64,000 bases of DNA from Phanerochaete sordida (Eukaryota; Basidiomycota; Agaricomycetes; Polyporales; Phanerochaetaceae), in NCBI GenBank assembly GCA_019973155.2, contig BPQB01000029.1:124001-188000 (forward strand). The letters are read 5' to 3'. Below are positions 8,553-61,103 of this stretch, one piece after another; position 1 is the first letter of the stretch, and each line of letters starts with the position of its first letter. Made by a program: the position numbers and the translations under genes. The notes beneath the pieces are model-generated. The model was not told the origin of the DNA. It searched no databases and saw only the letters and a list, made by a program, of their open reading frames with translations.

Positions 8553-9356
8553 GTGGAGCGGTGGGATTCCAGCTTCGAATCTAATTGCGCACCACCGTCG
8601 TCGAGCAGCACTGGCGAGTCCAGCTTGCTGAACAGCCAGGATTACCAAGCTAGCTACCCCAATGGTTCATGGCTCAACGATCCGACGAAGCAGACGTTGG
8701 AACCAGAGCCGTTTCTCCCCCTCGATAGTCTGGCGCTCGGTTCTAGCCTTGAAGAGTTGGTACACGTCCGCCAGCAGATCCACACGGCGTCCAAGAGTAC
8801 CAAGGTATTTGTGGAGCTAGTGCCGATATCTTTCGCGCCCCTCGGCACCGCGGTGCACCTGAGTAGTGTACTCCAGAATGGTCGGAATGCAACGGCTACA
8901 GTGCTTGAGACGTGGAAGTCAGAGCCGGCTGTCCACTGCCCTGACGACGTCGGGCAGAAGATACAGCTAAGACTCCACGTGAGTCTTCTTTGGTGCTCCT
9001 GGCTGGCATATCTCATCCACCTCTCGAAGTGGCCAGGATATCGTCCCCAAGTCAGGGCACTCAACATCAAGGACTTCACGAAGGACGAGAACCTTGTGAC
9101 GAAGGACAAGCTGTTCCAGAGGGTGCGCGGCGCCATCAAAGACATGATGCAGGTCAGCCCGACTCGAATTGATTATCTCGTATCTACCCAGCTCAACGTT
9201 ACGAAACAGGAGCTCGAGCAATTCACTGTCGATCCGCAACAATCGTGCTGGCGTGTAGGAAAAGAAGGCTATCAATTCGAGGACGTCTTCCTGGTTTCTG
9301 TCGAACGGAGGTCGAAGGGAAGTTGGCAGCCAGAGGTCTATGTTCGGAACAAGTGA
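8553..9356 (+). CDS. WS1: divergent member of the WPGY/SWQP small-protein family, with N-terminal extension
   Basis: Unknown function. The family frame is seen in the last two exons: exon 9030-9152 opens with WPGYRP, and exon 9210-9356 carries VFLVSVERRSKGSWQPEVYV. Introns 8979-9029 (51 nt) and 9153-9209 (57 nt) are in frame, so the genomic frame reads straight through; removing them gives 231 residues from the Met at 8553. The N-terminal exon is unusual, Ser/Gln/Leu-rich, and lacks the clear FH-x-F and VPQ motifs of other members. The gene may start earlier: a coding-looking frame from the ATG at 8071 (LPDDHDSWLGYCD...) and a short exon ending near 8511 (SKNPSYRTP) could be spliced on through an acceptor near 8549. 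The segment LVTKDKL resembles LITKGRL of WS4 and WS6, so it may belong with them. The last two exons are secure; the 5' part is tentative. Confidence 0.75.
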   Translation: MERWDSSFESNCAPPSSSSTGESSLLNSQDYQASYPNGSWLNDPTKQTLEPEPFLPLDSLALGSSLEELVHVRQQIHTASKSTKVFVELVPISFAPLGTAVHLSSVLQNGRNATATVLETWKSEPAVHCPDDVGQKIQLRLHVSLLWCSWLAYLIHLSKWPGYRPQVRALNIKDFTKDENLVTKDKLFQRVRGAIKDMMQVSPTRIDYLVSTQLNVTKQELEQFTVDPQQSCWRVGKEGYQFEDVFLVSVERRSKGSWQPEVYVRNK

Positions 9357-10154
9357 TACGTTTACCATGGCTGAGCCTGATGTATGCTTATGTTTTGTCG
9401 CTGCTTCGGCTGATTTGGCGGGCCCCGGTGACCCGAGTCAACTGAAGAAGGTGTTCTAGAATATGGGCGGCTCCTCTCCACATCTTAGGCTCTGTAGGGT
9501 GTAGAATATTATATAGGCTTCTGTAGGCGCGATACGCCATCGCGGCGTTTCGTAGGTATCTGTAGGCGGTGTAGATAGACTGGTGTATACTATTTAGGCT
9601 AACTATATCGATATGGAAACCTATGTACTGTCAGGTAGGACGGTGTGCTTTGCTGTAGCGCTGTCCTAGCTACTGCCCCAAATATCGAATGAAATCAGAC
9701 CGCCGATTGGTGATGATGTGCTCGCACACCATGGCACTCGAGCTTTGCCTCTCGACTGCGTCCCACCTTGTGAGCTATCGAGCTTGAGCTGCCAATGTAG
9801 CTTCACGGACGACTGAATGCCGTCCCTGACTTCTCACGAAACACGTCCTTGCTTCAGCTTGATTTGGGTTCTATGAAGAGCCTAAAGGCCACATTATCAC
9901 AAGAAGTTAGCATGAGCACTATAGGCATACAGTAAAACGTCGAGGTCACAAATCGAAATCAGAACTTTTCCTGTCGACCCAAGTACAGATAACTTCGCTG
10001 CACCAGGCAGCATGAATAGAACTTCGAATATAGTACATACTGAACAAGATATTAGGGTGCGGGTCGTACTGCTACAGCTCGAACGAATATTGGGCTGTTG
10101 TGCCGCCGGCAGCAGTCTATATATTCAATACTTCCCCTCGCCATGGACCACCGT
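9357..10154. other. Intergenic between convergent WS1 and WS2
   Basis: About 0.8 kb, AT-richer than the genes, with no supported ORF. Near 9485-9590 the word tctgtagg occurs three times (degenerate short repeats). The stretch near 9915-9965 matches one near 7340-7390 (cactatagg followed by a shared aacgtc, aggt and cacaaatc pattern). Confidence 0.5.
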
Positions 10155-10760
10155 CTAATCCACAACCCAGCTCAGAAGGGGCTGCCATGACCCCTCAGAC
10201 ACGTGGTGTAGCTCGACAAGGATAATTCTGCTCGACGACCGTCTGGTGACGTCCCATTCCGGTCTGGTGCAGCGAACGTCCTGATGATCCTGTGAAGGCC
10301 AGTTTCAACACGATATAATCAGTATGGAAAGCCAGTTGAACGCACATGCAGGAATCTGGCGATTGCAGTCGCTATGCGCTGCTCCAGCTGCCACAGCATA
10401 ATAGGTCCAAACGACCCGTCGTTGCGGCGTTCGCGAACGTTGATCGGCGCCGACCACGGTGGGAAGCCAGGCATCTACTCAGTAATTAACGACCCAACCA
10501 CAAAGTATGCAGGTATCATGCTTACGTCGAGCCTTAACGTGATCCTAAAAGTCCTCTCGTCGGTGATGACTATTGGCGCGTTGTATTCCGGACAATTCGA
10601 AGGAGCGGCTCTGAGACTCGCGCCCTGCGCGATGCTTATATTCATGGGGAATACGACCGCGGGTCTTCGAACGTATGTCGCAGACCTCACGTAAATTCTC
10701 TGTGGGATTATAAGCCCGTCTGAGCCGCGAGCGATAACGTTCATGAACGAGTGGTAGTCT
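10155..10760 (-). CDS. WS2: WPGY/SWQP family member (first exon not placed)
   Basis: Read on the minus strand: an exon from about 10760 to 10526 starting DYHSFMNVIARG and carrying GLIIPQRIYV and FRITLRLD; intron 10525-10475; exon 10474-10346; intron 10345-10290; exon 10289-10155 ending LVELHHVSEGSWQPLLSWVVD and a TAG. The helix exon begins MPGFPPW instead of the usual WPGY, a visible change at the most conserved tryptophan. Its C-terminal helix (EQRIATAIARFLH) is preserved, and both late introns are phase 0 at the family positions. The first exon, usually only a few codons, is not certain; the acceptor near 10761 does not fit the usual phase. About 165 residues are placed. It lies on the same strand as WS3 and converges on WS1. 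Closest in appearance to WS3. Confidence 0.78.
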
Positions 10761-11834
10761 CTGTCTCGGTTACTGTTTCCGGCCTAAACAAAGTTGTGAA
10801 CCAGCATGTCGGCGCATTTCTCTGCAGTGCTGAAGTATCTCGATGCTCACCATGTATCCTAATGTGGGGTTGTGCTGTGCCCAGAGGATACGCTAACGCA
10901 GCTTATATGCCTGTCCTACTATGCAACGCTGGCCACCAGAAAGCCCTCACATCGTCATCTTCCAGGATTATTGGAGGACCAGTGGACAAAGCATGTCTTC
11001 GTCGCGACAGAGAATCCCAGGTATCTGCATGCCCGGTTGGTAAAGAGCAAAGGATATCTGTCTACTGGAATGATGATGTGCAGATCTGCGAGGCCCGGGC
11101 GATTGGATCCCGGAGGACACAAGCCATAAGCGTGCCCTCCCGAGGCATACGACGACCAACTCAGGATTTCGTGCCTGCACGCCGGAGGCTAAAGCCAAAT
11201 TCTAGCGTAAATCCAAGGATATCTGGAGAACCGCACCCCCGCACTCCGAGGCCCGGTGACGTACGAAGCGCGTCCCGCTTACGCCACACGCCGAGTTGCT
11301 ACAGCAACTTTAGAATTCAACCCGCAGCCGCGTTCTGCGAGAGGGCCGCGACGGCGGGCGCACCAGCGCTGCATACGCACTAGGCCGCATTTCTGACTGG
11401 ATAACGCGTTTATTTTCGCGCAGATATCCTTTGGCGCAGGGACGGCGTCGGGGAACGCGCCAGACCGCGTCGCCGTTGAACGGGCGCTTGCGCCACGTCC
11501 CGTTTTGCTCATTTCGTCACTCCCGGGTGCGTCGTCTATTCGGGCCGACGATGATTGCGTGCATATATCCCGCACATCATGATACTAGGTTTCTGACTGC
11601 GCTTCCAGTGGATACGCTGCGCGCGCTCGGCGGGTCGGACGCTCCGCCGCTTCCGTCGTCCACAAGTCCGCACTTCCGCGCTCCGTGCATAGGCGGCATT
11701 ATTTCCGCAGAATCGCATTCACATAGGCATACAGATCAAGAATTACGAGACCAATCAGCCGTGGTATAAGGTCGCGAACTGGAATCCCGTCCAGCTGCCG
11801 CAGTATCCCTTCGACGACGCTCAAAGTGGACGCT
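10761..11834. other. Intergenic between WS2 and WS3
   Basis: About 1.1 kb, GC-rich from 11200 on. A plus-strand frame of 210 codons (10751-11383) is open but has no recognisable domain and starts over the WS2 coding exon, so I do not call it. This stretch should hold the WS2 promoter and first exon. Confidence 0.4.
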
Positions 11835-12483
11835 TCACGCGTCGTAGCACAAGACAGGCTGCCAGGACCCATCGGAGACATGGCGCAGCTCGAGAAGGAT
11901 GAGCTTCTCAAACGGAATTCTGGTGACGGCCCAGTCTGGCTCAGATGTCGCCACCTCCGCATGGATCTGTGCCGTCGGTCAGTAGGCGGTGAAGTTATTC
12001 AGAAACGCGCAGCGCTGACCTGATAGAAACTCCTGATGGCGTCTGCGACTCTCTTGGCCAGCATTCCCAGCGTTATAGGCCCTGGAGTATCTGAGCGTTC
12101 CGTCCCCTGGATGACGCGGCCCCAAGGCTTGTAACCAGACCACTGTTCGAGATCAGCGAGTGCAGACCTTGGCTAGCAGGGCTAAACTTACCGCCAGGCG
12201 GAGAGTAAACTTCAGCTTGTCGCAGGCGGAAGTCGTCACCCGAGGTCTATAGGCAGGATGATCGACGTAATGCCTTGCTTCAGCCCTCCAGAGATAGGTC
12301 CCTCTGGGGAATATGACCGGCTCGCGTTTGTCGAAGTGGCTGTTAGCGACGTAACCCTTCTGCGGAACGACGATGCCTTGCGAATTCTCGATAGTCATGA
12401 AAGTGTGGTAAAACTGATCGTGAAGTGAATGAGCGAGGGGCTCTATGCGGTTGAACTGCACGACGCACCCCTTCGGCTGCCAT
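11835..12483 (-). CDS. WS3: WPGY/SWQP family member
   Basis: Exons on the minus strand: 12483-12469 (MAAEG), 12413-12192, 12142-12020 and 11966-11835, giving 163 residues, with introns of 55, 49 and 53 nt, all phase 0. The second exon starts FYHTFMTIENSQGIVVPQK and ends TLRLA. The third starts WSGYKPWG (proline of WPGY replaced by serine) and ends with a helix IRSFYQ. The last has IPFEKLILLELRHVSDGSWQP followed by VLCYDA. The last intron carries an early stop if read through, so splicing is required. All family motifs are present, so the gene is probably functional. Same strand as WS2. Confidence 0.88.
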
Positions 12484-18744: not shown

Positions 18745-19446
18745 ATGGCCAGCGTGAGTCGTCTACACTTCTTATTCGAACCATTCATATCAACACGACC
18801 CAGTACCACGTCTTCACCGACGTGCGCATGCCCCAGCACCTCCCCGTAGGCGCAGTGCTCGTGCCACAACGCACCTACACCGCCGAGCGTCCCGTGCAGG
18901 CATTCGATGCTGCTGCTCCCATTCGCTTTGTCACGCGCGGCGCGCTTGGCATACGCCTGGTCGACGCCCTTGAGGAGAACACTTTCGCACTCGAAGGAGC
19001 TGGAGAGATGATCCAGATCCCGAGCAGGGGCCAGAAGCTCGGCATCCGAATGGTTGTACGCCAGCCTCTCTTGCTCATACTAGTCCCTGTCACGCTCATT
19101 TCCTGCCTCTGCATCTCAAGTGGCCCGGATACGAGCCTTGGACTAAGCACATCTCGATCGTCGGAGTGGCCCCGAACCAACTCATCACGAAGGGCCGACT
19201 CGCGTATGAGGTCGCCAGAGCCGTCAGGAAGTGCCTCGAGGTCGGTCTACCGCCCTTCCCACGAGCAGCGAGCTCACGAGCGACTAGGAGCTGAGCCATA
19301 AGAGCTCCTCCGAGGCTGCACCCGACTGGTGGGCGACTCAGGTGCCCATCGACCAGCTTGTGCTCCTTGAGCTGCACCAGGTCATGCTGTCCTCCTGGCA
19401 GCCCATCCTCTGCCGCGTCGTCCCGGTCCCGGCCCTGGGCGCATGA
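18745..19446 (+). CDS. WS4: WPGY/SWQP family member (WS4/WS6 subgroup)
   Basis: Exons 18745-18753, 18804-19055, 19121-19240 and 19288-19446 (9, 252, 120 and 159 nt) give 179 residues; introns are 50, 65 and 47 nt, all phase 0. First exon codes only MAS. The second begins YHVFTDVRMPQ, has GAVLVPQRTYT and ends IRMV. The third begins WPGYEPW and contains LITKGRL before a helix. The last has DWWATQVPIDQLVLLELHQV and SSWQPILC. All four exon lengths equal those of WS6, and the two proteins align without gaps, so they are recent paralogues that still differ at many residues. The family serine-glycine before WQP is Ser-Ser here. Confidence 0.9.
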
Positions 19447-20647
19447 TATGGCTTCCTTTGTCAACTGACAATTTTTGCTCGATTTTATGGCTCGCTTGGA
19501 CGCTGTCTTTACTGATGTTTGTGTTAGAAATTTTTACGCCCTATTTACGAAGTGGTGTGTAGTATCACAGTAAACGCGCCCCCTTGCAAATGATAATCAT
19601 GCTGTTTGTGTACACTGCCTCGTCCGAATGAGACAAACCGTGTCTGAAGCTTCTTATATTTTAATATCCAGGCCCAGCCTCAAGCTCGGCTACGCTCAGC
19701 GAGACGGCTGTGTTCGACGAAACGGACGTTGAACGAGAAACGAGGTAAGTAAATTCAACTGACTACGCTTGTGCGCTTGCTCGGCGCCACGAAGGCCAGG
19801 TAGCCAAACAAGGCACCCAAACAAACCGAGCGGTGCCCGCGTCTGCATTTTTTCCGCAGCCCCCATCCCGACACAGAGCTCTCGATCCACGTTGAAGATG
19901 TCTCAACTCGTACTTGAAGCTCTTTTTGAAATTTCTTTTGTCTTTTGCAGCTAGGTTACCAGACCTCAAGGATTTCGCGACTCATGCGTGACGAGTCGCG
20001 AGACCTGCGAAGCTGATCTACGGAGCCCGGCTGCAGCGTATTGGCAGCGTATCGTGTTGAGTTTTTCCATCCGTCGCAACCCATATAACTGACGTCACTC
20101 AGAGGCATGCAGGCCCTCTGTGCGCAGTCGGTGTCCCTAACCAACAAATGGAGTTCTTACTATTCATGACGCCGACGATCGAGCGCCCCAGCGAAATGAA
20201 CTCGGTCCGTTCGTGTGGACAAGCCGAATATTCTGAATATCTGGGCCTGTTCTTCTTCTTGCAATGTCCATTCTACAACCCTCTGCCCATCATAGGTAGC
20301 CCTGATGCTTTCGTCCCTCAGGTGTCCGATGCAGCTGGGGAACCAGCAGACTCCATATCGAATTTCATACAACGCCTCTCGAAATGAACCATCGTATTCC
20401 TGCGACTAACCATAGGCAGGGCCGCGTTGCCAATTTCTACTTGTCCTCTGTACTCAGATATCATGGATCATGGCGGGAAAGGGCGGTGGACGAGCCGAAA
20501 CTGGCTACTGACGGACCGTAGGTAGCGGGGAACACGGAAACGCAAGACCTTGGTCAACCATGGGTGCACTACAAAAGCAGTCCCGCCGGTGAGCTGGTGA
20601 GCACACTTCGGAGTTACCCCAACATCCATTGCATGCGCGGCCTTGAC
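19447..20647. other. Intergenic WS4-WS5, similar to the WS6-WS7 spacer
   Basis: About 1.2 kb with no convincing ORF. Landmarks match the WS6-WS7 spacer in the same order: gcgccac-gaaggc...aaggcac-caaac near 19781 (sister near 23205), gagctctc...ccacg near 19877 (sister near 23278) and tccatcc-tcgc near 20067 (sister near 23490). Confidence 0.55.
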
Positions 20648-21342
20648 ATGGCAAATAATCAGAATGGCCAGGTGAATATTCTCTGCCGCGCCGCTCACGC
20701 CTCGTCAGCTAACTGGTTATACCATTAGTTTCATACGTTCATGATGTACCACGGGCAGAACGTGCAGACGCCAGGCATCATCGTTCCCCAGCGCATGTTC
20801 CCGCTTCCGCAGGGACAGAGCCCCGCCGATCTAACGCTGCAGCCAGTACGATTCTTCGTAGGCGGCCGCCTAGGTGTCCACCTCGACACCGCCCGACAGG
20901 CCCAAGTTTGCGACCTCAATCATGCGAACAGCACACCGCAACTCGCACTTGGCAGAGGCCGACCCACGCTTCGCATCTTGGTACGTGCATCTGTATATCT
21001 CGCGCAGTACCTTAGTTAATGTATTGATTCCTTCAGTGGCCTGGATACTCTGATTGGCATTATCTAAATGCTGTGGACATACATGGCGCCCACCCGACTC
21101 TGGCTCACATTACGCAGCGACTTGCCCAGCTGATCTACGATTTCTACACTGTCAGTCCATCCACTTCCATTTCACAACAGGACGCTAACACGCCGCAGGG
21201 CATGATCACACACGAAGGCAGCGAGACATGCTGGAGACTGCAAAACATCCCCTTCGATACTTTGTACCTCGTCGAGCTGCGTCAAGTGGGGCGGGGATCC
21301 TGGCAGCCGGTTCTCTGCACTAACATCCAAATCTCGCAGTAA
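20648..21342 (+). CDS. WS5: WPGY/SWQP family member
   Basis: Exons 20648-20671 (MANNQNGQ), 20729-20980, 21037-21150 and 21199-21342 give 177 residues, introns 57, 56 and 48 nt, phase 0. The second exon (252 nt, as in WS4, WS6, WS9) starts FHTFMMYHG, has PGIIVPQRMFPLP, RFFVGGRLGVHLD and ends LRIL. The third starts WPGYSDWHYLNAVD and ends in a helix LAQLIYDFYT. The last has CWRLQNIPFDTLYLVELRQV and GSWQPVLC before NIQISQ. Intact and complete; belongs with the plus-strand core group WS5, WS7-WS11. Confidence 0.92.
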
Positions 21343-22273
21343 TTGTATGGCTAACGATTTCTTTGATTCGCTTGAAAGCGTACATGCCTACTGTACATGT
21401 ACCATTACTATCGAATTTACTTGTATCTGTAGCATGTAATATTATAGATTTATCGTTTGTTCGGGCATACGCGCGCTGCACAATTCAGAGTGAGAAGCTC
21501 CGAAGTTGAAATAAAATATATTCCCATGCAGAGCACAACTATCTCAGTCTGGAATGCAGATCATCATACCCAGAACGAGGGAAGTCGGCCGAAGAACGAA
21601 TGGCACTGTCATGGCGCTCCTCTAGATCACTGGATTCTTCGGGATCAGTCCGCGGTTGCCGGAAGGCTAGATGAGAAGGGAGCTCACCCACGCCGCACCC
21701 AGCCTCGTGGCGTCTCGTCAGGTCGGTGCAGGCTGCATTCTTGCCGGGTTTTATTGAATGACCTGCATGGCCACAACATCGCATTGGGATGGAAGCCTCG
21801 CTTGAAGCATCCGGGTTGATGACGATGGTCTCAGGTCGCCATGGTGAGCTGCACGCCATGGATCTGCTCGCCCGTTGACTCTCCATACCCAAATGAGTAA
21901 TTCCAGTGGCGATGGCGTGGATGCCACTGCCTTCAACACAGTGCGTCAATTAACGATGATTTCCATAAAGCGAATTCTGTTCCTCAGTGTTGATCATGCC
22001 CACCGTCCGCGCGAGCTCAGTCTCCCATTCGCACGCCAGATCATGACTAAGCACCATATGTTGGTCACTCATATCCTTGGTACGGCGAATTATACATGCG
22101 GGTCAGTGTATCTTCTGATCGCATAGTACAGCGTTGGATTGCATGCACGCAACATTAGCGTCCGCTCGTATGACGGTCGCTGGTTGATCTACAGCCTCAC
22201 ATTCCGGACATACTCGAGCTGGGTATGTACTTAAGCCGCCGAATGCGATGGGGATGTCTCCATAATCCCCTCG
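21343..22273. other. Intergenic WS5-WS6
   Basis: About 0.93 kb. Open frames on both strands (for example 21457-21819 and its antisense) show no family motif. It must contain the WS6 promoter; a weak 6-bp inverted repeat (GGGGAT/ATCCCC, about 22249-22270) lies just before the WS6 start. Confidence 0.45.
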
Positions 22274-22977
22274 ATGGCCACGGTGAGTCATCTTAGCTCT
22301 TCTCCCATACACTCACGTCACCTCTGGGCTCAGTATCATATTTTTACCTCCGACCGTATGCCCCGAGAGCTCCCTGCAGGCGGCGTGCTCGTCCCGCAAC
22401 GCACCTACACATCCGAGCGCCCTGTTCAGGAATTCGAGCCTGTTGAGCCGATTCGCTTCGTTGTTGGTGGAAAGCCGGGCATCCGCCTGGACGCGGCCCT
22501 CCAGGAAGACACCCTCGAGCTCGAAGGTGCGGGCGACATGATCCAGCTGCCTAGCGGAGGACAAAAAATTGGAATCCGTCTAGTCGTAAGTCACGCATTA
22601 TACAAAATTTCTGTTGGTTCTCACCCGTGCTTCTACTTCTTACCAGTGGCCCGGGTACGAGCCCTGGTTCAAGTACATCTCCGTCTCGGGCACGGCTCCG
22701 GGACAGTTGATCACGAAAGGACGCTTTGCCTTCGAAATTGCACGAGTCGTAAGGCAGTGCCTCCAGGTTCGCGTGCTGCCGTTTTAATGCAAAAGTTTGA
22801 CTTACTCGTAAAATGCAGGAGTTAGGCCAGCAGAGTTCTACTGAGACGGCGACCGATTGGTGGGCCTCTCAGGTGCCGCTCGAGCAGCTGGTGCTCCTCG
22901 AGCTACATCAAGTCCTTCGCTCCTCCTATCAACCCGTTCTCTGTCTGATCATTCCGGATTCCGCTCCCGCAGCGTGA
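22274..22977 (+). CDS. WS6: WPGY/SWQP family member (WS4/WS6 subgroup)
   Basis: Exons 22274-22282 (MAT), 22334-22585, 22647-22766 and 22819-22977: lengths 9, 252, 120 and 159 nt, identical to WS4, giving 179 residues. The second exon starts YHIFTSDRMPRELPAG, has GVLVPQRTYTSERPVQ and ends GIRLV. The third starts WPGYEPWFKYISV and has LITKGRFAFEIAR. The last has DWWASQVPLEQLVLLELHQV, then SSYQPVLC: the tryptophan of the SWQP motif is tyrosine, unique in the family. Upstream of WS7, matching the order WS4-WS5. Confidence 0.9.
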
Positions 22978-24014
22978 GCCGGCGCGCTCTGTCAAACGAC
23001 GAGTGTCCGACGTTTCTTGCTACTAGTACTGACCAGTAGAACTGGGCTACTAGGGATTTATGATCATGTATTTTTGCGATTCTTCTATTATGCAATGTAT
23101 CTCACTATTTATTCACCAATTTCTGCGAGCTGAAGTAGCGGATCTGAAATGCTTACAACGAGCTGCCAACAAGTGCTGAGCACCAGACTACAGCTTACGT
23201 AATGAGCGCCACAAGGCGAAGAACCAAATAAGGCACGCAAACCTGCCGGGCCTGCCGGCTGGCGGCCCACGTTTCCGAGCTCTCCTCCACGCTGACTGCA
23301 CGCTGGAAACCATCCCCTCGCTATCCTGCCCTGAAATCCCCGAAGTAATGAACCAGAAAAGCTAGTATATCAGCGGTTTTTTATTGTATAGCGCGGCGGG
23401 ATACCCGGCCACGATGCACGTCGGATTTCCGTAGCGTCGCGATGCGAAATTCAACTTTCGGAGCGCGCTCCGATCGCGTGGTGAGCGTGTCCATCCATCG
23501 CCACCCTCGTCATGTTTACCTCACGACGACACACGTATCTAGCTGGAAACACGCCTGCCCCGCTCACGCCGGACGGGATATATCTGTTGAGTATGATATG
23601 CCGGCGCAGGCGTGAGCGCCAGACGAAATGAAATGAACGTCACGCGCGGGCACCGCCCACATTTCTGCTTTTCTGGGTGCTGATAATCGCAGACAATATT
23701 TGATTACCCTTCGGCGAGCCTTGTTTGTGTGGCTCTGGGCTCTCTTCACGCACCAGCTGCCGGAGGGCGGCCCCCAAGGAAATCTGCGTCATGCTTCAGA
23801 CGTCGCGCGTTTTCCTTCAATGTGGCGCATCTTTCTCCGTATGGAAGCGCTATTAGTTGGTTTTGTTGTTATATTGACGGAAAGGTGCAGTAGGAAACCC
23901 AGCTGGAAGCGTGGCCTGGGCACTGTCGACGACTCTCCTCAAAAGCGAGCGCGAATCCTGGTCGTGAGTACGTCCACAGCATACTCAACGAAGTGCATAC
24001 TCACTGTCTCTGTC
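22978..24014. other. Intergenic WS6-WS7, similar to the WS4-WS5 spacer
   Basis: About 1.04 kb without a supported gene. It carries the sister copies (near 23205, 23278 and 23490) of the landmarks noted in the WS4-WS5 spacer. An AT-rich run near 23340-23400 precedes a GC-rich part. Confidence 0.5.
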
Positions 24015-24681
24015 ATGGCGAACAGCGTATGCAGCTACTCCGTTTGCTCTGCTTCTTTCGCTCATCTTCTAGACCAGTTTCACACCTTCGTGGATTACCA
24101 GCAGGAGACGCCGTTTCCCGGGATCATGATCCCCCAGCAGGTTTATCGCGTACCAAACTGCCCAGCACCTCCGAATCTGCTTCCTCCTATACAGTTTCTG
24201 GTAGACGGACAGCTGGGGCTGCATCTCCAATCTGCCTTGAGGCCCCCCATTACTTCGCTGCAAAATGCGACGACATTCCCGCCGCTGACTATGACGAACA
24301 ACAGAGTCACGCTCCGCATCAATGCAAGTGTCATCTAGCCCAGGACTACTCGTCCTCTGATCTTCGTGCTGTACAGTGGCCTGGATACGACGACTGGCAC
24401 TACGAGAACGGTGTCGATGCGCGCGTGCAGAATCATCAACGTTCCTTGGAACAAATCGCAAGTCAAGTTGCGAACCGCATCCAAGAGTTTCACAGGGTAC
24501 GTTCCAGCTGCTTCGTCGTTTCTGCCCCAGGTCGTCTGATGTGCCGCAGAGTATGGTTTCTGTTCCTTGTTCCCACAGTGACTGGTCTTTGCGGAATATT
24601 CCATTCGAGAGCCTGTATCTCGTCGAGCTACGCAACGTTTCGAAGGGATCCTGGCAGCCTGTCATCTGCGCCGCCCTCTGA
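24015..24681 (+). CDS. WS7: WPGY/SWQP family member with a GC-AG intron
   Basis: Exons 24015-24026 (MANS), 24078-24323, 24377-24496 and 24550-24681 give 169 residues. The second exon starts FHTFVDYQQETPFPGIMIPQQ, has IQFLVDGQLGLHLQ and ends VTLRIN. Its donor is GCAAGT rather than GT, the strong-consensus form seen in GC-AG introns; reading on reaches an in-frame TAG within six codons. The third starts WPGYDDWHYENGVD and ends IQEFHR. The last, shorter at its beginning, has SDWSLRNIPFESLYLVELRNV and KGSWQPVICAAL. Its position after WS6 mirrors WS5 after WS4. A T12 run follows the stop at about 24711. Confidence 0.9.
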
Positions 24682-25904: not shown

Positions 25905-26583
25905 ATGGCGCAGAACCCCCAGAACGCTGTGAGTCGCCGTCTATTTTGGTCATTTCGCCCGGGTTCAGCTCACTATAATACCCAACAGCAGTTTCATTCG
26001 TTCGTCGATTATCTCCCCGACCACCCGCAGGGTATTGTGATACCTCAGCCGGTTTATCAGGCGCCGCCCGGCACACCCTTCGTCCCGCATCAGCCCATCC
26101 GCTTCGAAACTGACGGAGGGCTTGGACTGCCCTTGCAAACGGCGCTCGTGCAGCCTATCCAAGGTCTTCATAACGCAGGTACCGTATTCAACCTGGCGAA
26201 TGGCAGCAACAGACACTCCATCCGTATCTTGGTAAGCAGGGCTACTCTCAGCCGCGAGCCGCGTAATTAAAGCGCACACCGCGTAGTGGCCTGGTTATGA
26301 ACCGTGGAACTATCCGAACGCGTTGCATACTGGACCTCGCACCCGCGCCGAAATTGCGCACGAAGTTGCGGGTCGAGTTTTGGCGTTTCACCAGGTAAGT
26401 CCGACTACAGAGTTCTTTATGTCTACGTCGCAGCCACTTAACGAGCTATAGGGCATGGTACAAGCCCAGGGAAACGAGGGGGACTGGACTCTGCAGAATA
26501 GCCCTTTCCAGAATCTTTACCTCATCGAACTCCGCAACGTTTCGAAGGGCTCCTGGCAGCCCGTCATCTCCCGTAGTGTCTAA
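25905..26583 (+). CDS. WS8: WPGY/SWQP family member
   Basis: Exons 25905-25928 (MAQNPQNA), 25992-26231, 26287-26394 and 26452-26583 give 167 residues; introns 63, 55 and 57 nt, phase 0. The second exon starts FHSFVDYLPDHPQGIVIPQPV and ends SIRIL. The third is the shortest helix exon of the family (108 nt) and starts WPGYEPWNYPNAL. The last starts GMVQAQGNEGDWTLQ and has LYLIELRNVSKGSWQPVI followed by SRSV; the Cys common after PVI/PVL is Ser here. Gene and upstream DNA share a common origin with WS11 and WS9. Confidence 0.92.
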
Positions 26584-27737: not shown

Positions 27738-28440
27738 ATGCACAACCCCCGTGCCAGCCAGACCAACGTACGTAATCGCGTTTTCGTGTCTGTCGTACAC
27801 GCTCATGATTCGTAGGGCCGCCAGTACCACTCGTTCATGAACTACTCAACAACTCAGCAGCAAATGATTCCAGGCATCATTGTTCCCCAACAAGTGTATC
27901 CACTTCCTGCTGGTCAAACCGCCGACGGTCTCCTACCCCCGGTCCAGTTCTTCTGCAATGACTATCTTGGCATACACCTCGATACCCTGCCTCTCCAGCA
28001 GCTCGTCAATGCCAACGACCAGCGTTACCTATCGATGACGAACAACAGGGTTTCGCTCCGCGTGCTCGTAAGCATTCCTAGCTCTCTGCGCGGATTTTAC
28101 CCTGAAGCGGACGTGGTGCTCATACAGTGGCCCGGCTACGACACCTGGCACTTCGGAAACGCTTTGGATGCTACTGATGGGCAGAAGCGTACCCGTTCCA
28201 TCGCCGAGATTGCACAGCAGGTCGCAGAGCGCGTTCGGGAGTTCTACAACGTGGGTGATGCTTGGACTTCAACTTTGACGACCTACTGACCTCGCCGTCG
28301 TACAGGAGCAGGTCACCGCCGACGGCGGAGTCGCAGACTGGTCGCTGAAGAAGATTCAATTCAAGAGTCTCTACCTCGTCGAGCTGCGGAACGTCTCCAG
28401 AGGTTCCTGGCAGCCCGTCATCTGCTGTCGGGTGGAGTAA
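27738..28440 (+). CDS. WS9: WPGY/SWQP family member
   Basis: Exons 27738-27767 (MHNPRASQTN), 27816-28067, 28128-28250 and 28306-28440 give 179 residues; introns 48, 60 and 55 nt, phase 0. The second exon begins GRQYHSFMNYSTTQQQ, has PGIIVPQQVYPLPAG, VQFFCNDYLGIHLD and ends SLRVL. The third begins WPGYDTWHFGNALD and ends VREFYN. The last has DWSLKKIQFKSLYLVELRNV and RGSWQPVICCRVE. The ATG chosen is the one followed by a good donor (gtacgt); no other in-frame ATG precedes the acceptor at 27815. Confidence 0.9.
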
Positions 28441-29666: not shown

Positions 29667-30390
29667 ATGGCTCAGCCTCCTGCTCTCCCTATCGCAACAA
29701 ATCCAGTAGGCACTGGTGAAGCCTGAGCTAATACCTGAGCTGATTGTGTTTTGTTTGATTAGAGCACTCACCACACATTCGTTGACTACACCGAGCCTAT
29801 CCCAAGCCTTCTCCCAGGGCTCCTAGTGCCACAGCAAGTCTACAGGCCGCAGAGCGCCCCCGGAGGCTTCGTGCGGCTCGACAGCATCCCGTTCTGCCAC
29901 AATGGGCGTATCGGAATACGCTTGCGCGACGCGGTGGACTCTGCGCGCATTGCCGGTCTCTACGCCGCGCAGTCTCAGCCCACGCTGTCCGAGACTGGGA
30001 TGCGGGTGACGCTGCGCATCCTCGTAAGTCTGTTCGCGTCCGTAGACGTATGTGCGCTGAGGTCTTCGCAGTGGCCGGGCTATCAAGAGTGGCGCTACGA
30101 GAACGGCATCGACATCTTCGACCACACGTACAACGCGAACCCGCAAACGCTCGAGCGCATCGCGAATAAGGTTGCGAAGCTCATTAGGACCTTTTGCGAG
30201 GTAGGCCGCCGGTCATATCTCTCGAATCCCTTCCGCTAATTGTGTACACAAAAAGGAGATGACCAATGCTAATCCAGCGGAGCCGGGCTGGGCGGTCGGG
30301 GCTGACACGTTCAACCAGCTCTACCTCATAGAGCTGCGCCATGTCTCCAAGGGCAGCTGGCAGCCTGTCATCTGCTGGGATAGGGCTTAA
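29667..30390 (+). CDS. WS10: WPGY/SWQP family member
   Basis: Exons 29667-29705 (MAQPPALPIATNP), 29763-30023, 30072-30200 and 30256-30390 give 187 residues; introns 57, 48 and 55 nt, phase 0. The second exon starts STHHTFVDYTEP, has PGLLVPQQVYRP and IGIRLRDAVD, and ends VTLRIL. The third, 129 nt, starts WPGYQEWRYENGID and has an inserted DHTYNAN before the helix. The last has GWAVGADTFNQLYLIELRHV and KGSWQPVICWDRA. It has the longest first exon of the family among those placed. Confidence 0.92.
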
Positions 30391-34184: not shown

Positions 34185-34898
34185 ATGGCCCAACATAACC
34201 AGTTCGCGGCAAATGTACGTGATCGTTCGCGGCGCTGATATGACCTCGCTCACTATGAACAGGGCCAGTTCCACACTTTCGTGAACATGAATTATCCCGA
34301 GGACGTGTACAGGCTTCTTCCAGGGGTGCTCGTCCCGCAGAAGGTATATACACCGCCTCACAATCAGGCTAACGCAGCACTCTACGCTCCCATTCGTTTC
34401 TCTACCACTATCAATGGGGCTCAGGTTCCTGGCGTGCGCCTCCAAGACGCTTTACGTGGTCTCCTCAACGGGCTCAATGACGCAAACTCGCACCCGACGT
34501 TGAGCGTGACCAACAACAGAGTCGCACTTCGCATCCTGGTATGTCACGCTCATTCACGATGTTCGCAACGCGGCCCTCACCCGCCCCTTTCTAGTGGCCG
34601 GGCTACGAGGGCTGGCATTTTTCCAACGCCATCGACGCCGGCGGCCAACAGCATCCGCGCACCCTCGCACATATCGCCAACCAGGTCGCCAATCGCATCA
34701 ACGATTTCTACAGGGTGAGAGCTCGCGCTAAGGTGGTCCTGATAATTGGTTGCTGATGCAGCGCAGGAACAGCGGGCCGTCGTGGGCACCGAGCCCGACT
34801 GGAACTTGCGCGACATACCCTTCGAGAGCCTGTATCTCGTGGAGCTCCGCAATGTTTCTGCTGGCTCCTGGCAGCCCGTCATCTGCCGCCATGTCTAG
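34185..34898 (+). CDS. WS11: WPGY/SWQP family member
   Basis: Exons 34185-34214 (MAQHNQFAAN), 34263-34538, 34595-34714 and 34767-34898 give 185 residues; introns 48, 56 and 52 nt, phase 0. The second exon, 276 nt, begins GQFHTFVNMNYPED, has PGVLVPQKVYTPP and VPGVRLQDAL, and ends VALRIL. The third begins WPGYEGWHFSNAID and ends INDFYR. The last has DWNLRDIPFESLYLVELRNV and AGSWQPVICRHV. Last member of the plus-strand core run. Confidence 0.92.
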
Positions 34899-50172: not shown

Positions 50173-51412
50173 GATATCGGTCAATCGTCGCATTTCCAGC
50201 CAGCCGAAAATAGTTAGAACCAGAAAAAGACGCGGAAAATAATAAAAATATTCTTGTACTCTGAACACCTGGGTCGCGGCACTCACCTCCAGCCAACATT
50301 TGCCCTCGCCACAGCTCCTACTACCCCTCGCGTTCACACTCACTGCACAGTGAGAACCTTCCAGGCCCTTTCCTCTTACCCCTTGCTGCTATCCGCGCTC
50401 TCACACGTCACACATCAGAGTTAAGCTCTATTCAAAACCGAGAAGCTTATCATTCGAATCGATAGCCCCTAGCAGCGGCCTTGATGACGGGTGCGCACCA
50501 TGACTTCACCCTCACATCGCCGCTATTGTTGACATCTTCCGATATTTCTCAGCGGATCATCGGTGCTAGTTTTGGGTACGGTGCGCACGGACCAGGCGAC
50601 TCGGTCCCAGGTTTGCGAAGCTGACCTGCGCGCCCAGCACCCACTGTATTGCCCGAGACAAAGCCAAGGGCAGAGCTTGCCCGGCCGCCTTACCGCCCGA
50701 ATGCTACAGGCTCCGTGTGGTAACCAAATACCATCGCTGCTGGGAACAGCTCCGGACGGGTACGAAGGCGTGCGCCACGCGCGGAACTGAGGCTTTACAG
50801 CAGGCTGCCGCATTGCCATGGGCCGCCACGTCCGTTGCATGCCTTGCCCGAACGCGGGCAGGGTCTGGCCGGCCCTGGCTACCCCTCCAGGAAGCAGCAG
50901 GACCAATACCCGAACCCTACTTGGCTTGAGCGGCTGATTGCGATGACGACTGGGTCTTGTTCCCATCCAGACACCGCCTTTGTGCGAGCCAAGGGCGATA
51001 GCTGCGCATGTTCACAGGGCACGTAAGCTGAGTCTGCTGCCGCGTGCGGGGTGCAGACGAGGTCCAGGAGCTGCCTGATCTCGTACGGAGACAGTCTGGA
51101 GGCAGGAAATGTGCTGTCATGAGGGCCCTGGGTGTGCTCCTGTGCAGCGGTGCCTTTCTGTCTGAGCGTTTGAGTGGTTGTTTCAGTGAAGGCGCGGGGA
51201 GAAGGCAATGACCCTTGGGTCAGGGCGGGCATGAGGCAGCGTGAGCCGCTGGGCGCCTAATCGTGCGTTCTATAACGGGGCGAATTGCAGCGTCCCAGAC
51301 TCGCATTTCGGTGGACCAGGCCAGTCTGATCTCGACGTCCACGACCTCCCGCACCCCGAACACCGACCGACACCTGGTGGCAGGATCCCCAGTGCCAGCG
51401 CGCAGCCTACTC
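50173..51412. other. Intergenic between PAN3 and the Cid1-type gene
   Basis: About 1.24 kb. No supported ORF. The frame leading into the Cid1-type gene stays open from 51263, but without an ATG before 51413. Confidence 0.5.
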
Positions 51413-54400
51413 ATGGCTGCCGTATATTCCCCGACGCTCAGCAACGTCCACCACAGCCAGCCGTCGCGGCAGCTACATGCCGTCCAGACGAGCCCGCCAC
51501 GAAGATCCCACATCTCGAGGGCCCAGTTCGCCGCCGAGCTCACACAATGCCTTGTCGAGTTCGTCGTACAGCTGCTCCCGACGCAAGACGAGCTAAGCAT
51601 CAAGGAGGACGTCAGGAAGCTGCTCGAACGACTCATACGCACCATCGAGCCCGACAGCCGGTTGCTATCCTTTGGAAGCACGGCGAATGGCTTTAGCTTG
51701 CGCAACTCTGGTACGTTTCTCCTCGCTTCCGAGGCTATAAGCTGCTTGACGACGTGGGCGCAGATATGGATCTATGCTGCTTGATTGATTCAGAGGACCG
51801 TCTCCCTGCGACGGATCTGGTCAATATGCTTGGGGACCTCTTTGCGCGAGGTGCGTACCCTGCTCCCTCTAGCATGCTACATGCACTCAGACTTCCCTGC
51901 AGAGACTAAGTTCCACATCAAACCCTTGCCTCATGCCCGAATACCGATCGTGAAGCTCTCATTAGACCCCCAGCCTGGGTTACCCTACGGCATCGCCTGC
52001 GACATTGGCTTCGAGAACAGGCTAGCCTTGGAGAACACAAGACTTCTCATGTGTTATGCTATGATAGATCCCATGCGTGTACGCACCTTGGTCTTATTCC
52101 GTAAGTGTTCGCCCATCAGGCTAGGTATATGCTATCTCAATCCGCTTGTGGCATACAGTGAAAGTGTGGTGTAAACGAAGGTAAGTGCGACGTAGCACAT
52201 CGTATTCATCGAGCCTGGCTGACAGGTCTATAGAAAGATCAACTCGCCCTACAAGGGTACTTTGTCATCATACGGCTACGTCCTACTTGTCATATATTTT
52301 CTTGTGCACGTCAAGAACCCACCTGTATTACCAAATCTTCAACAAATACCTCCTCTACGACCTATCTCTCAGGTACGCTTACCTACATCGGAAGGACTCG
52401 CGTCGCTCACGAGCGTACAGGATGAAACTCATATTAATGGATTCAATGTTTGGTGAGTCGTAACGCATCAGCCCTTCCATTCCTTCGCTGACATTGCCCA
52501 GGTTTTTCGACGATGTCAACCTCCTTAGACAACGCTGGCAATCGCAAAACACAGAGAGCGTCGCCGAGCTGTACGTCGCCCGCCGATCTCTATACGGATC
52601 GTTTCGCTGAAACAATACACAGCTTGATCGACTTTTTCAAATTCTACTCACGGGACTTTGCCTATAATACTGGGGTTGCTTCCATCCGAGCTGGTCTTTT
52701 GACCAAAGAGAGCAAAGGATGGGATAACGACGTATGTGCTCTTACAATGGCTTCCCCTTCGCGCTGACAGTGTTGAAAGCCCGACAAGGGGACAGCAAGG
52801 GAGAGGAATCGCCTATGTATAGAGGTATTTTGAGTGAGCTAGGCTGATTGGTCTCGTGCTGATCATCTGCCAGGATCCCTTCGAGACCAACTTCAATGTG
52901 TCGCGCTGTGTTACGAGAGACGGGTTGTACACCGTGAGTTCAACAGCACATGCCAGAGCCAAACCATGCTCAGAGGCGTCGGCATACAGATCCGGGGCGA
53001 GTTCATGCGCGCGTCACGAATATTGGCCGCACGCCCTGACCGCGCATTCGTCGCGTTGGCCCAGTTGTGCGAAGAACGAAAAGATGAAGAGCTTCTACAC
53101 GCTTCTCCGTCTCGATCGTCGTTCGCGCCGCCTAAGCTGCCCTCGGTTCCTAAGGCTGCGCAGACTCCATATACCATCGGCAGCAACCCCATGCGGCCTA
53201 CAGGTGCACCTGAACCCGATCGCCTATCACCTCCCGAGGTTCATCAGATACCTTCTGCCCCATCGCCGCTACCGGCGACATACCCCGCCGCACGACCAGC
53301 CCACATGGCTCCGAAGCGCGCGAAGTGGACCAGTCCCCCGCCACCTGAAGCATCCGAGGAAGACCAGCTGGCTTTTGAAGAGAGCCTAGGTCAAGGTCTC
53401 AGCCTCGCTACTGTCTCTACCCACGCGAGGGAGGCCGACCACGAGACTGCTTCGTCATCGAATAATAGCGAAATATTTACCGACGAGGAAGACCATAGAT
53501 CGGTTGCCGACTCGGATGATGTGGCTTCCATTCGATCCTTTACGGAGGGCGCGCGCTACCATCGACCTGTAGTCTATTCCGCTCAGACCTCGCCGCAAGC
53601 CCCTGCCTACGTGGTCGACCCTTCGAGTTCTCGAGGCGGGCTGCGCTACCCCGCCTCTCTGCATGACGGCAACTCCGACCAACGCCTGCTCAACAGGCTT
53701 CGAGGACGGCCCTCAGCCAGGCCGCTGCACTACGTGCCGGAGAATGGTGATGGTTTCCGAGCACAAGCCAGACCGAGGCAAGAGACAGGCTTCGTCCCTC
53801 CGCCTCGGATGGACACCGGCACCCCGCGCCGAGCAACCTCGGGGCCAGCTCGACCGCTCCAAAGTAATCGGTACTCCATGTCTGCGCTACCAGCAGTTGT
53901 TACACCGCTATCGGTATACCCCACACGAGCGCAAGCAATCAGCCAGCAGCCAGTCCAGCAACGTTCGAATATATTTTACGAAACGTCGTCGCCCATCCGG
54001 GACCGCATGGTAAGGGCTCTGAGCTCTACGTACGCCATGCCGGTTGCGCGATTACCGACCTACGGGAAACTCGATGGTCTCTCTCCCGGCGCTGAACCCA
54101 TGTCACCCCAATTTGAGGGCACCTTACCGTCCTCACCTCGTCATCTTCGTCCGGTCACCGAACATCAGCTGGGTCCTACCCCTCCGCTGTCGACCACACC
54201 CTCACAGTCCTATGTCCAATCTCCTCGCACGACCCAGTCATCGCATTCTCACTCACTCTCACAGTCGACCATAGTTCCGTCGACGCCGCCGTCCGCCGTC
54301 CATCATCTTCCCACCGCCGCCCTCAGCCGCCGCCGGCCGTCTGGATCCCGCGCCAGCTCTGGATCCGTTGACCGTCCGGGGTACTCTCCCACAGCCGCTT

Positions 54401-55055: not shown

Positions 55056-55838
55056 CTAGCGTTGCAGCCGCCTGTTGTTTGGCGGAGGCAGAGGCGGAGC
55101 GCCTGGGGCCGGCTTCCGTTTCACCGGCACACCTGTCCAGCTGAACACGGGCTGCCAGACGTTCGTCGCGACCTCCCTGCACTGGACGAGGTACACAGCG
55201 CGCAGGAAGTTATCCTGCGCCTGGGCGTCTTGGCCCTGGCTCTGGCCGGCGCGTCCACGTCAGGGTCCGCGCGGCGTACGCAGAGCGGCGAGCACGCACC
55301 TGGAGCCAGCCGCGCATGAGCACGCTGATTTCGCGCGCGAGGACGGCGAGCGACCAGGCGCGCGTGTACGACGGGAGCGGCGTGCTCGCGCAGAAGGGCG
55401 CGCGGCCGGGCCACTGGTGGAAACGTCAGTGCCCGCGCGTGGGCCACGCGTGGCGGACGCACCTGCACCACGAGCGTGATCCCGGATGGGAGGTGGTCCG
55501 CGCAGGCGTCGTCGAGGATGTGCATGCGCACGACCTCCGGACGCTCGGCCTCCTTGAGCGTGAGCGGCCCCATGGACATCGTCGGGCCGCCCGCGCTCGG
55601 TGGCCCCGGGCGCTGGACGCGGAAGAGGAAGTCCTGCGGGAACAGCGCGGGGGTCTGGGTCCCGGCAGGCACCCACACCCGCTGTGGGACGATGATTCCT
55701 CGCACCTGCGCGCGCGTGCATGCTAGTGAAGGGTCGGAGAGGTGGTGGAAGGCGTGTGCCTCTGTTGGTGGCGCGACCTGGTATGGACGTCGGTGGCGTC
55801 AGTGGTCCTCGCCCCGCCTGAAGAAATATACATACCAT
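55056..55838 (-). CDS. WS12: most divergent WPGY/SWQP family member, Pro-rich tail
   Basis: Minus-strand exons 55759-55463, 55413-55300 and 55235-55056, plus a possible first exon of only ATG (55838-55836) before a gtatgt intron of 76 nt; total 197 residues. The second exon reads AHAFHHLSDPS then RGIIVPQRVWVPAG. The third starts WPGRAPF (Tyr replaced by Arg). The last has FLRAVYLVQCREV and NVWQPVFSW, so the SWQP serine is Val; it then runs on for about 25 residues of Pro/Arg/Lys-rich tail (APGAPPLPPPNNRR) absent elsewhere. The three late exon borders are clean and phase 0; the start is tentative. Strong GC bias suggests long residence away from the main array. Confidence 0.75.
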
Positions 55839-58390: not shown

Positions 58391-59055
58391 CTAATGCCTG
58401 TCGAGACAGAGCACGGGCTGCCAGCTGCCCGTCGAGACGTGGCGGAGCTCGAGTAGCACGAGCTCTTCGATGTTGACGTTGTTCAGACTCCAGTCTGGGC
58501 TGACCGTCCCCGACGTGGCCATGTCCTGTGCGCGCGTGAGGTCAGCCTCCACTCTTTCTGTCCACATGAGCGTGTGACTCACGTTCTTCAGTAGCCTGAC
58601 TGTTTTTGCGACTTCATGCGCAAGCTTCGCGAGCGTAATCGGCCTGACCTCGTAGGAGTGGTCGAAGGCGTGCACGACATAGCTCCAGGGCTGGTAGCCA
58701 GGCCACTGCGACCAGACATCAGCTCTCGGCCCCGTCTGTCAGGGCAAGCGCCAGACGTACGTTGATCCTGATGGTGATCTTCTTCGCCTGCTCCGAGAGT
58801 TTCGGGACCTCGTTGCTCTTGGCCAGGTTCTGGAAGACTTTGTTGAGCGCGTTCGAGAGCCGGACACCAGGTCGGCCGCCCTCGGTGAAGCGAATGGTTG
58901 GTAGCTGTGCGAACTGCCCTGGTGCGGTGTACACCGGCTGAGGCACTACGATTCCAGGCAGAGCAGCGTCGCCAAAGTCCATGAAGGTATGGAACGTCTA
59001 GAAGAGTTAGAGACCGTAAGTGCTTGTACTTCTGCAGGCTGATTCTGCTCACCAT
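58391..59055 (-). CDS. WS13: WPGY/SWQP family member, first exon possibly only the start codon
   Basis: Minus-strand exons 58997-58761, 58705-58583 and 58525-58391, introns 55 and 57 nt, phase 0. The only ATG in phase with the 58997 acceptor is at 59055-59053, directly followed by gtgagc; the same frame upstream has a stop without another ATG, so the first exon would be ATG alone, unless a further upstream exon exists. That gives 165 residues. The second exon starts TFHTFMDFGDAALPGIVVPQP, has IRFTEGGRPGVRL and ends TIRIN. The third starts WPGYQPWSYVVHAFD. The last has DWSLNNVNIEELVLLELRHV and TGSWQPVLCLDRH. Core motifs all present. Confidence 0.85.
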
Positions 59056-60400
59056 CTTGTGCAGGGCTTTTGCGGGTGCCTGGGAGGAGTAGTGCGCTGC
59101 TCGTTGGATGCTCTCTGACCGCAGCGTCGACGAGCCTTTTAACACACAGTCTTTTCCACCACCGCGTCAACGCTTGCATGTTCGCAGACATACTCGTAGA
59201 CATGCAGCGGGTCGACTAGCGCAGGACGTCGTCGGCCAGCTAGACCCGTCGTCTGCTTGTGGCCCATCATCGAGACAGGCTGCTGGAAGAGCCATGGACT
59301 GCGCGTGTTCTTGGTCGGCAGGACGCCTAAGGCCGACATGCAACTCCACGAAGATAGAAAGACTTAGCGGGTTCTGCGCTCAGAGCAAGACGCTACGTCG
59401 TGTGTACCACGTCGCGAGCACAGGGCGCAGCTAGCGGGGGGCGGTGAGTGCCACTCTCGCCACCTTCTGGTCTCTTTTTTTTCATTACTGCAGTAGTAAA
59501 TCCATCACGCGCAGCAGGTCTGCAAGAATACGGTGACAGCATCCTATGTGAGGTCACCACCTTCGCAAGGCAAGCGTCCGCGGCGTTTGGGTATGGTAAC
59601 TTGCCGAGCCGAGAAGGCAGATGGACCCTAGCTGCCCATCAACCGAGGGCTGAGGAACTGCCTTCGGGGGAACCACGGTGGATTACTGTGCGAGGAAAAA
59701 CTGCGATATTCCGGAGCACGCGGCCTGCACGGTGCTGCGGACCCGTCCGTTGTTCCGTCGCCTCCGTTGTCGGAAGCTAGCGGGCGTCGACAAAGTGTGG
59801 AGGGCCGCAAAACGTCCGCGCGCCGCTTAGCCTGTGAGATGGGTGTCAATCGGGCGCACTGCGCTCCGTCGACGACCCGTGCGTGTTGGCGCTAGACGAC
59901 ACAGCCTCGGGGAACTGACCCGCACCGGTTCTCAAGGCGCTGGCGCCAACCGTGGCGTACTCGGCGTTGCTAGTAACGTCCTGGCGTTTTGAAAGTACGC
60001 AAGGGCATCCGCTCCCCCGCGATGTCGTCCTAGCCTTTACGTCTATCCGCATTTTGCAACATTTAAGAGGATTTCCAACCACCCTTGAGCAGCAGCCTAA
60101 CCTCGTGTCGCGCCGCCGCACGCCGCTGCGTTCCGGCTGTCAATCGCAGTGTTAGGGTAAGGCCTGGCGGGACCATTCAGGCCTCCTGGTGGGGCACCTT
60201 TGGGGACCATCCATCTCTGCCTCGCTTTCAATCGCAAGGCGTGGTGCCCAAGGGTTCAGATCGCAGGGCTTAATGCATTTCAAGCATGCCACTGAGCCGA
60301 ACACGCCGCACAAATACGCATTCCTCGGATAGCACGCCAGGCCTCAGATATAAAAGGGCTCCGGACAAGCACTGTATCTCAACCCCTCACCCGCATTCTC
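59056..60400. other. Divergent intergenic region WS13/WS14
   Basis: About 1.35 kb between the starts of two family members on opposite strands, so it must hold both promoters. Open frames such as 59108-59434 have no motif. Confidence 0.5.
60349..60356 (+). promoter_or_regulatory. TATA box of WS14
   Basis: TATAAAAG, 45 bp before the WS14 start codon. Confidence 0.65.
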
Positions 60401-61103
60401 ATGGCCCACAACACAGGACTCTTCATACGCAAGACGGTGAGCATCGTCCAGCCACTTTCGCGTACTCTCTGTCTCACTTGCAAATGCACGTCGCCCCGCC
60501 TAGGATGGCTACCACAATTTCACAGAATTCGACAACGCGACGCTCCCAGGGATAGTCGTGCCGCAGGCGGGCGACAACCACCAGAGCCGTGCCGAGTCTC
60601 TGGAGATCGTCTCGTTCGCCGTACGGGGCGCGGGGCCGGGCATCCGCCTTGGCCCTATGGACGCCATTAGCCCACAGCTCGCGTCTATAGACCAAGAGCG
60701 TCAGATGCAGCTCGTGTATGGGGCACCTGAGCTCACCATCCGGATCCTGGTACGCGCCGTGTCCGCAGCCCGGGGCCCCGTCTTCGTCTGAGCTGACGCC
60801 GCGCAGTGGCCAGGGTACCCCGCCTGGGAGAAGCGCGTGCCCGTCGGCGGGCCCAACGTGAAGATCCCGCTCTCGCGTTTTGCAGCCGTGCTCGCGGCAG
60901 CCGTGATGCAGTACCTGAAGGTGCGTCGTGCGCCGCGGCCCAGAGCGCGTCTGACGGGCCCACAGGAAATGTCGGTGACGGCGTCGAGCGAGGGGCGCGC
61001 AGACTGGTGGATCTCGCGCGTCGGCGTCGAGTCGCTCGTGCTGCTCGAGGCGCGGCGCACGGGGCCCGGTACTTGGCAGCCGGTCCTGTGTCGCGTTGTA
61101 TAG
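60401..61103 (+). CDS. WS14: WPGY/SWQP family member
   Basis: Exons 60401-60436 (MAHNTGLFIRKT), 60504-60749, 60807-60920 and 60966-61103 give 177 residues; introns 67, 57 and 45 nt, phase 0. The second exon starts DGYHNFTEFDNATLPGIVVPQ, has GPGIRLGPMDAI and ends LTIRIL. The third starts WPGYPAWEKRV and has a strongly helical, alanine-rich end (FAAVLAAAVMQYLK). The last has DWWISRVGVESLVLLEARRT and GTWQPVLCRVV; the DWW doublet is shared with WS4 and WS6. GC content is high. Intact. Confidence 0.9.

Follow-up and report, generated by a model that had tools for sequence, protein, structure and literature searches.

A tandemly arrayed small-protein family homologous to DUF6741 in the white-rot fungus Phanerochaete sordida

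What are the small genes that recur along one contig of the fungus Phanerochaete sordida? We analyzed a window of 64,000 nucleotides from contig BPQB01000029.1 (C29:124001-188000), in which a sequence-only reading had described a 14-member array of an unnamed small-protein family, WS01 to WS14. The genome searched comprises 40.8 Mb in 222 contigs; the announcement of the strain YK-624 genome reports 41.2 Mb in 341 contigs, with 17,108 genes according to BRAKER2 prediction (PMC8530024). The WS genes are homologous to the Pfam family DUF6741 (PF20526), share its intron positions, are laid out in tandem and show purifying selection in the pairs where it can be measured. Our preferred reading, to which we assign a probability of roughly 0.55, is a birth-and-death family homologous to the DUF6741 gene and encoding putative soluble, intracellular, non-enzymatic binding modules.

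WS loci were located by a six-frame motif search and gene models were built by splice enumeration. This recovered 14 loci spanning window positions 8541-61103, with the common exon layout that had been described. Complete four-exon models were obtained for 12 members; WS01 and WS12 are divergent and have tentative 5' ends, and share the last three exons with the others. The layout is an ATG exon (1-13 codons in the complete models), an exon running from [FY]HxF past VPQ to R[IVL]x, one that opens with WPGY and includes a helix, and finally an exon with LxLxEL and, near its end in the complete models, WQP and the stop. Both late introns (the one preceding WPGY and the one preceding the last exon) are phase 0 throughout, 28 of 28, as the sequence-only reading stated. 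The first intron is also phase 0 in 12 of 12, so that all 36 introns of the complete models are phase 0; permitting other phases for the first and last introns gave lower scores. Introns of the complete models measure 45-67 bases, and 39 of the 40 introns in the array have a GT donor. No frame break was found within the modeled exons of any of the 14 members, again as described, and the predicted proteins of 163-187 residues agree with the suggested domain of about 170.

The motifs proposed for the family are present in most members, but they are looser than claimed. [FY]HxF occurs in 11 of 14 (WS10 has HHTF, WS12 FHHL and WS01 none), [VI]PQ in 13, exact WPGY in 11 (MPGF in WS02, WSGY in WS03, WPGR in WS12) and exact SWQP in 11 (SYQP in WS06, VWQP in WS12, TWQP in WS14), while exact L-x-L-[VI]-E-L is found in only six. 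The models of WS10 and WS14 are identical, letter for letter, to the deposited proteins PsYK624_090840 and PsYK624_091000, a match that backs exon 1 and the three introns of both genes. Those of WS09 and WS11 contain the deposited PsYK624_090830 and PsYK624_090880, which start at an internal methionine, without exon 1 or the FHxF motif. Since two of the four deposited window members found lack the first exon, copy numbers based on annotation may be too low.

Had the family no name, as the sequence-only reading supposed? In a Pfam scan, PF20526.3 matched 12 of 14 members at E <= 0.1 (not WS01 or WS06), although only WS10 (31.9 bits) and WS13 (30.5 bits) exceed its cut-off of 27 bits. With the later model PF20526.4, precomputed annotation assigns the domain to the deposited WS10 and WS11 but not to WS09 and WS14. 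Aligning a profile of 19 WS-type rows with one of 41 canonical DUF6741 rows (hhalign) gave a probability of 98.7%, an E-value of 4.2e-16 and 25% identity over 114 columns. By these profile comparisons the WS family is homologous to DUF6741, which is itself uncharacterised. Thus the array has not been matched to a characterised domain, and the claim of novelty shrinks to that extent.

The genome has a single canonical DUF6741 locus above the cut-off, PsYK624_010000 (C1:2310920-2311423). Its two introns, of 50 bases between LKIR and WSGY (before W-x-G-Y) and of 67 bases between HFLQ and ANMIP (after a long helix), lie at the WS late-intron sites and are both phase 0; we checked this in the DNA and found the join in the deposited protein P0013. 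Canonical and WS proteins share WxGY and GxWQP, two phase-0 intron sites and homology over the 114 columns. They differ in copy number and at the N-terminus. The WS branch is many-copy and has about 40 extra N-terminal residues with FHxF and GxxVPQ, whereas the one canonical gene above cut-off encodes a protein of 239 residues whose N-terminal tail, basic (RRRRHSS) and modeled at low confidence, is missing from most WS proteins. This tail lies outside the Pfam domain. No canonical-type basic disordered tail was seen in the 12 complete models, two of which (WS10 and WS14) have their 5' completeness backed by a deposited match.

Other candidate relatives were dropped. DUF6699, our initial guess, matched in no Pfam scan; a chromodomain resemblance suggested by WxGY reached only E 1.4 (MPP8). 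Pfam matches of single members (such as tissue factor, HHH_2 and DUF5984; E >= 0.02) and a DncV-like match of WS01 (E 0.16) were taken as chance, and an NCBIfam scan of two proteins gave nothing convincing.

The forward-strand members begin with WS01 at 8541..9356 (exons 8541-8978, with the tentative 5' end, 9030-9152 and 9210-9356). From WS04 to WS10 they run head to tail with a pitch of 1.63-1.93 kb; DUF6741 scores not yet given follow in brackets. WS04 lies at 18745..19446 (exons 18745-18753, 18804-19055, 19121-19240, 19288-19446; 16.1 bits), WS05 at 20648..21342 (20648-20671, 20729-20980, 21037-21150, 21199-21342; 24.6 bits), WS06, the sister of WS04 and without any Pfam match, at 22274..22977 (22274-22282, 22334-22585, 22647-22766, 22819-22977) and WS07 at 24015..24681 (24015-24026, 24078-24323, 24377-24496, 24550-24681; 26.6 bits). 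Intron 2 of WS07 (24324-24376) is the exception to the GT donors, a GC-AG intron reading GCAAGT...CAG. Then come WS08 at 25905..26583 (25905-25928, 25992-26231, 26287-26394, 26452-26583; 13.8 bits), WS09 at 27738..28440 (27738-27767, 27825-28067, 28128-28250, 28306-28440; 19.5 bits) and WS10 at 29667..30390 (29667-29705, 29763-30023, 30072-30200, 30256-30390). Farther along are WS11 at 34185..34898 (34185-34214, 34269-34538, 34595-34714, 34767-34898; 24.6 bits) and WS14 at 60401..61103 (60401-60436, 60504-60749, 60807-60920, 60966-61103; 21.4 bits). Four members are on the reverse strand: WS02 at 10155..10853 (10851-10853, 10526-10783, 10346-10474, 10155-10289; 17.1 bits), WS03 at 11835..12483 (12469-12483, 12192-12413, 12020-12142, 11835-11966; 22.7 bits), WS12, the most divergent, at 55056..55753 (55463-55753 with the tentative 5' end, 55300-55413, 55056-55241; 22.3 bits) and WS13 at 58391..59055 (59053-59055, 58761-58997, 58583-58705, 58391-58525).

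The array had been proposed to be kept under selection, and the measurable pairs bear this out. The proportion of nonsynonymous differences (pN) was below that of synonymous differences (pS) in 77 of 78 pairs of 13 window members (WS01 left out), with a median pN/pS of 0.70; these ratios are rough because most of the 25 least diverged pairs have a synonymous substitution rate (dS) above 1. We then compared nonsynonymous with synonymous rates (dN/dS) in 33 of the 42 members modeled by then, leaving out nine. All 12 unsaturated pairs (dS < 1.2, > 45% identity) had dN/dS below 1, from 0.15 to 0.62; these pairs share members and so are not independent. In a neutral simulation without indels, coding frames stayed open in 6% of cases at 0.2 substitutions per site and in 2.2% at 0.3.

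There are 14 members in the window, as had been said, but they are part of a larger set. Profile hidden Markov models (HMMs) of exons were built from window members (13 rows for exon 2 and 14 each for the exon 3 and exon 4 models) and run on C29:1-257300. The window members match them by construction; the 11 further loci found do not, and 10 of these have all three core exons. The 257 kb gave 24, 26 and 24 hits above 15 bits with the three models, and four controls (reversed C29 and three triplet shuffles) gave none (best 12.1), so the family signal is not chance. Four stray single-exon hits (9.5-17.0 bits) were left out of the counts. Four queries run against the whole genome (WS11, WS06, a piece of WS01 and the DUF6741 Pfam model) contributed four more loci on C29 (at 307, 368, 393 and 410 kb), five on C10, four on C50, three on C9 and a single one on each of C68, C87, C30 and C5. 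The total from these limited searches is about 45 loci on eight contigs, 29 of them on C29, window included; more may exist. C29_307k (E 0.03) and C29_368k are weak.

A three-exon core was modeled in 28 of the 31 loci outside the window, with phase 0 imposed and a lenient splice choice; one splice site was not found in six of the 28. An opposite-strand check showed C29_410k to be complete and exons 3 and 4 of C29_368k to be present, which leaves 43 of 45 loci with all three core exons. Some loci appear damaged or incomplete: C29_80k (C29:80334-81174) has a split exon 2, C29_96k (C29:95900-97400) lacks a recognisable last exon and C29_368k (C29:366524-369595) a recognisable exon 2.

Profile searches for relatives in other species returned 12 proteins at E <= 0.001 and 21 at E <= 0.01. 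Named ones come from Phanerochaete, Trametopsis, Phlebia, Phlebiopsis and Irpex, with one each from Gyrodon and Lactarius, alongside unnamed metagenomic proteins. The search depends on shared five-residue words, so absence from other taxa cannot be inferred. Relatives from P. carnosa (PHACADRAFT_211921 and PHACADRAFT_211919, which bear nearby locus numbers and lie on equally long contigs), Trametopsis, Irpex, Phlebia and Phlebiopsis carry VPQ, WPGY and SWQP and are mostly of similar length. We found one to three proteins per species, a number limited by shared words and annotation, against about 45 loci in P. sordida. Two relatives, P0081 from Irpex lacteus and P0087 from Lactarius hatsudake, have some 110-130 other residues ahead of the WS-type domain. 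These resemble the tails of basidiomycete F-box proteins; Pfam shows nothing there, and the extension may be either a fusion or a gene-model artefact. A canonical DUF6741 search returned 59 proteins, the named ones from what we take to be mushroom-forming fungi.

In a tree of 51 rows, 17 of 48 inner branches were starred for support and 14 were left open. Well-supported pairs include WS04/WS06 (100/99), WS03/C29_87k, C50_32k/34k and C10_395k/398k. WS05, WS07 and WS09 group at 86/82 (not starred), and WS12 sits on a very long branch. The long N-terminus of WS01 resembles that of the C5 copy PsYK624_030490, and WS01 clusters with C5_393k at 99/89. P. carnosa genes are nested among P. sordida clades (90/97 and 80/44, not starred), which would mean that the subfamilies are older than the species split. 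Along window positions 18745-29667 the subfamilies alternate (WS04 and WS06 versus WS05, WS07 and WS09), the pattern that duplication of a unit of two genes would leave.

Two blocks recur upstream of some members. The 19-base block CTGGCTTTCCAGCGAGGAC occurs with 0-1 mismatch at window positions 25669-25687 (236 bases ahead of the WS08 start codon) and 33954-33972 (231 bases ahead of that of WS11), and it also lies upstream of C29_231k. The best match in 400 mononucleotide-shuffled upstream regions had four mismatches, and the 17 other upstream regions examined had at least five. A second common block, CCTAGC...GCCATACAAAA, lies closer to the start. The blocks are possibly a promoter element or a remnant of duplication. 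No upstream 10-mer was common to four or more of the 14 members.

Ordinary genes are interspersed in the array. Five of 10 window pieces scanned gave a match, the fifth a weak low-complexity match. The others are genes for a DUF1365 protein (5255-6379, reverse strand), a cytochrome P450 (37062-37724, forward, below cut-off), importin beta-1 (44569-45321, forward) and a poly(A) polymerase-like protein (51245-51781, forward).

What might the proteins do? The WS fold was represented by an AlphaFold model of the P. carnosa relative P0003 (mean predicted local distance difference test score, pLDDT, 88.9; predicted template modeling score 0.84). The canonical model, P0013, has pLDDT 91-97 in its domain blocks and below 50 over most of residues 5-113 (mean 67.9). 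Read from secondary structure, the two models have in common the order helix-strand-strand-helix-strand-strand. A PDB fold search with P0003 gave no chain at E <= 0.001; ubiquitin-like/beta-grasp and B3-like domains were among those without a significant match. Conservation was analyzed over 54 rows in P0003 numbering, omitting WS12, C29_307k, P0012 and the DUF6741 rows. Conserved positions are chiefly aromatic, glycine, proline and strand residues, and entropy peaks in segments 37-50, 69-87, 103-121 and 141-148. The sequence-only reading placed the protein in the cytosol or nucleus. In the 12 window members with a settled start, the best 12-residue mean N-terminal hydropathy is at most 1.36; by this simple measure there is no strongly hydrophobic N-terminus, so an intracellular location is likely.

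In the reading we prefer, the WS family would have originated when the canonical DUF6741 gene was duplicated and the copies diverged. Each protein would be one soluble intracellular alpha/beta domain, made of the FHxF/VPQ segment and a beta-beta-alpha-beta-beta core, and would serve as a binding module without enzymatic activity. Its two hairpins would be formed by the conserved W, G, Y and WQP residues, and the choice of binding partner would lie with the variable segments. With most copies lacking the basic disordered tail and carrying their own conserved N-terminal segment, they may bind related partners minus the tail-borne function, and could serve as regulators, decoys or recognition proteins.

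Several observations weigh against this proposal. The modeled structure is that of P. carnosa P0003 and not of a window protein. Any soluble protein is expected to have variable loops. Some polar residues are near-invariant (H12 in 46 of 48, Q32 in 53 of 54, R93 in 48 of 54, E164 in 47 of 54, Q174 in 54 of 54) and could mean a ligand or catalytic site. Outside the window, C29_254k and C29_70k have hydrophobic stretches near or above the usual limits (1.74 over 19 residues and 2.02 over 12). The WS01 type, P0011 and P0079 have longer N-termini, so the tail is not absent throughout. The tree places the DUF6741 group inside the WS family beside WS14, on a long branch and without firm support (93/75, not starred), so the proposed direction of descent is tentative.

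If the domain were an enzyme or bound small molecules in wood decay or detoxification, the invariant His, Gln, Arg and Glu could form its site, and most of the named relatives belong to white-rot genera. However, H12 and Q32 lie in the segment beyond the aligned DUF6741 part, at the position of E164 DUF6741 mostly has N, H or other residues, and no convincing enzyme match was found by sequence or fold; we consider this account improbable. Descent from a nuclear DUF6741 protein, giving regulators that bind nucleic acids and have a B3-like pseudobarrel, is a further, unlikely account. Tandem duplication might also have produced the copies as by-products that are for the most part neutral, do little and decay slowly. 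The damaged or partial loci (C29_96k, C29_368k, C29_80k), the very long branch of WS12 and dN/dS of 0.52-0.62 in four of the 12 pairs would fit that. Yet all 14 window members have kept open modeled exons and their splice sites, where the simulation keeps just 6% open at 0.2 and about 2% at 0.3 substitutions per site, and dN/dS is below 1 in all 12 pairs, which makes mostly neutral copies unlikely too.

Structural matches in viruses raise a further alternative, a domesticated or exchanged viral gene whose fold is shared with giant viruses and phages. Foldseek against BFVD aligned P0003 with the uncharacterised pithovirus LCPAC401 protein A0A481ZAI3 (E 1.7e-4, probability 1.00, 167 columns) and with two uncultured phage proteins (probability 1.00, E 0.006 and 0.008). 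The predicted pithovirus fold is alike over nearly the full length, but identity is 12%, with no detectable sequence relation. Nine PHROGs families, with one member each (best E 0.033), were taken as chance; two hits in phage records (E 2 and 7) were not convincing, and 20 pattern matches in viral contigs included no relative. The canonical gene, moreover, is present in many mushroom-forming fungi and bears introns here, and a viral gene is extremely unlikely. It is also very unlikely, though somewhat less so, that the family is a large, fast-turning intracellular recognition repertoire, expanded in Phanerochaete and related white-rot fungi as a recognition or antiviral system outside the NLR and HET families. 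Such a repertoire would be built on the DUF6741 fold, which by the models would have no solved relative among those searched and would be shared by giant viruses and phages.

The preferred reading, a birth-and-death family of putative binding modules, turns a nameless array into a testable family: an uncharacterised fungal gene with some 45 related loci, apparently under selection, in a single white-rot genome. With no good counterpart in the PDB and a fold resemblance to viral proteins, a WS structure would be worthwhile. Work on either the canonical DUF6741 gene or the array members would inform on both.

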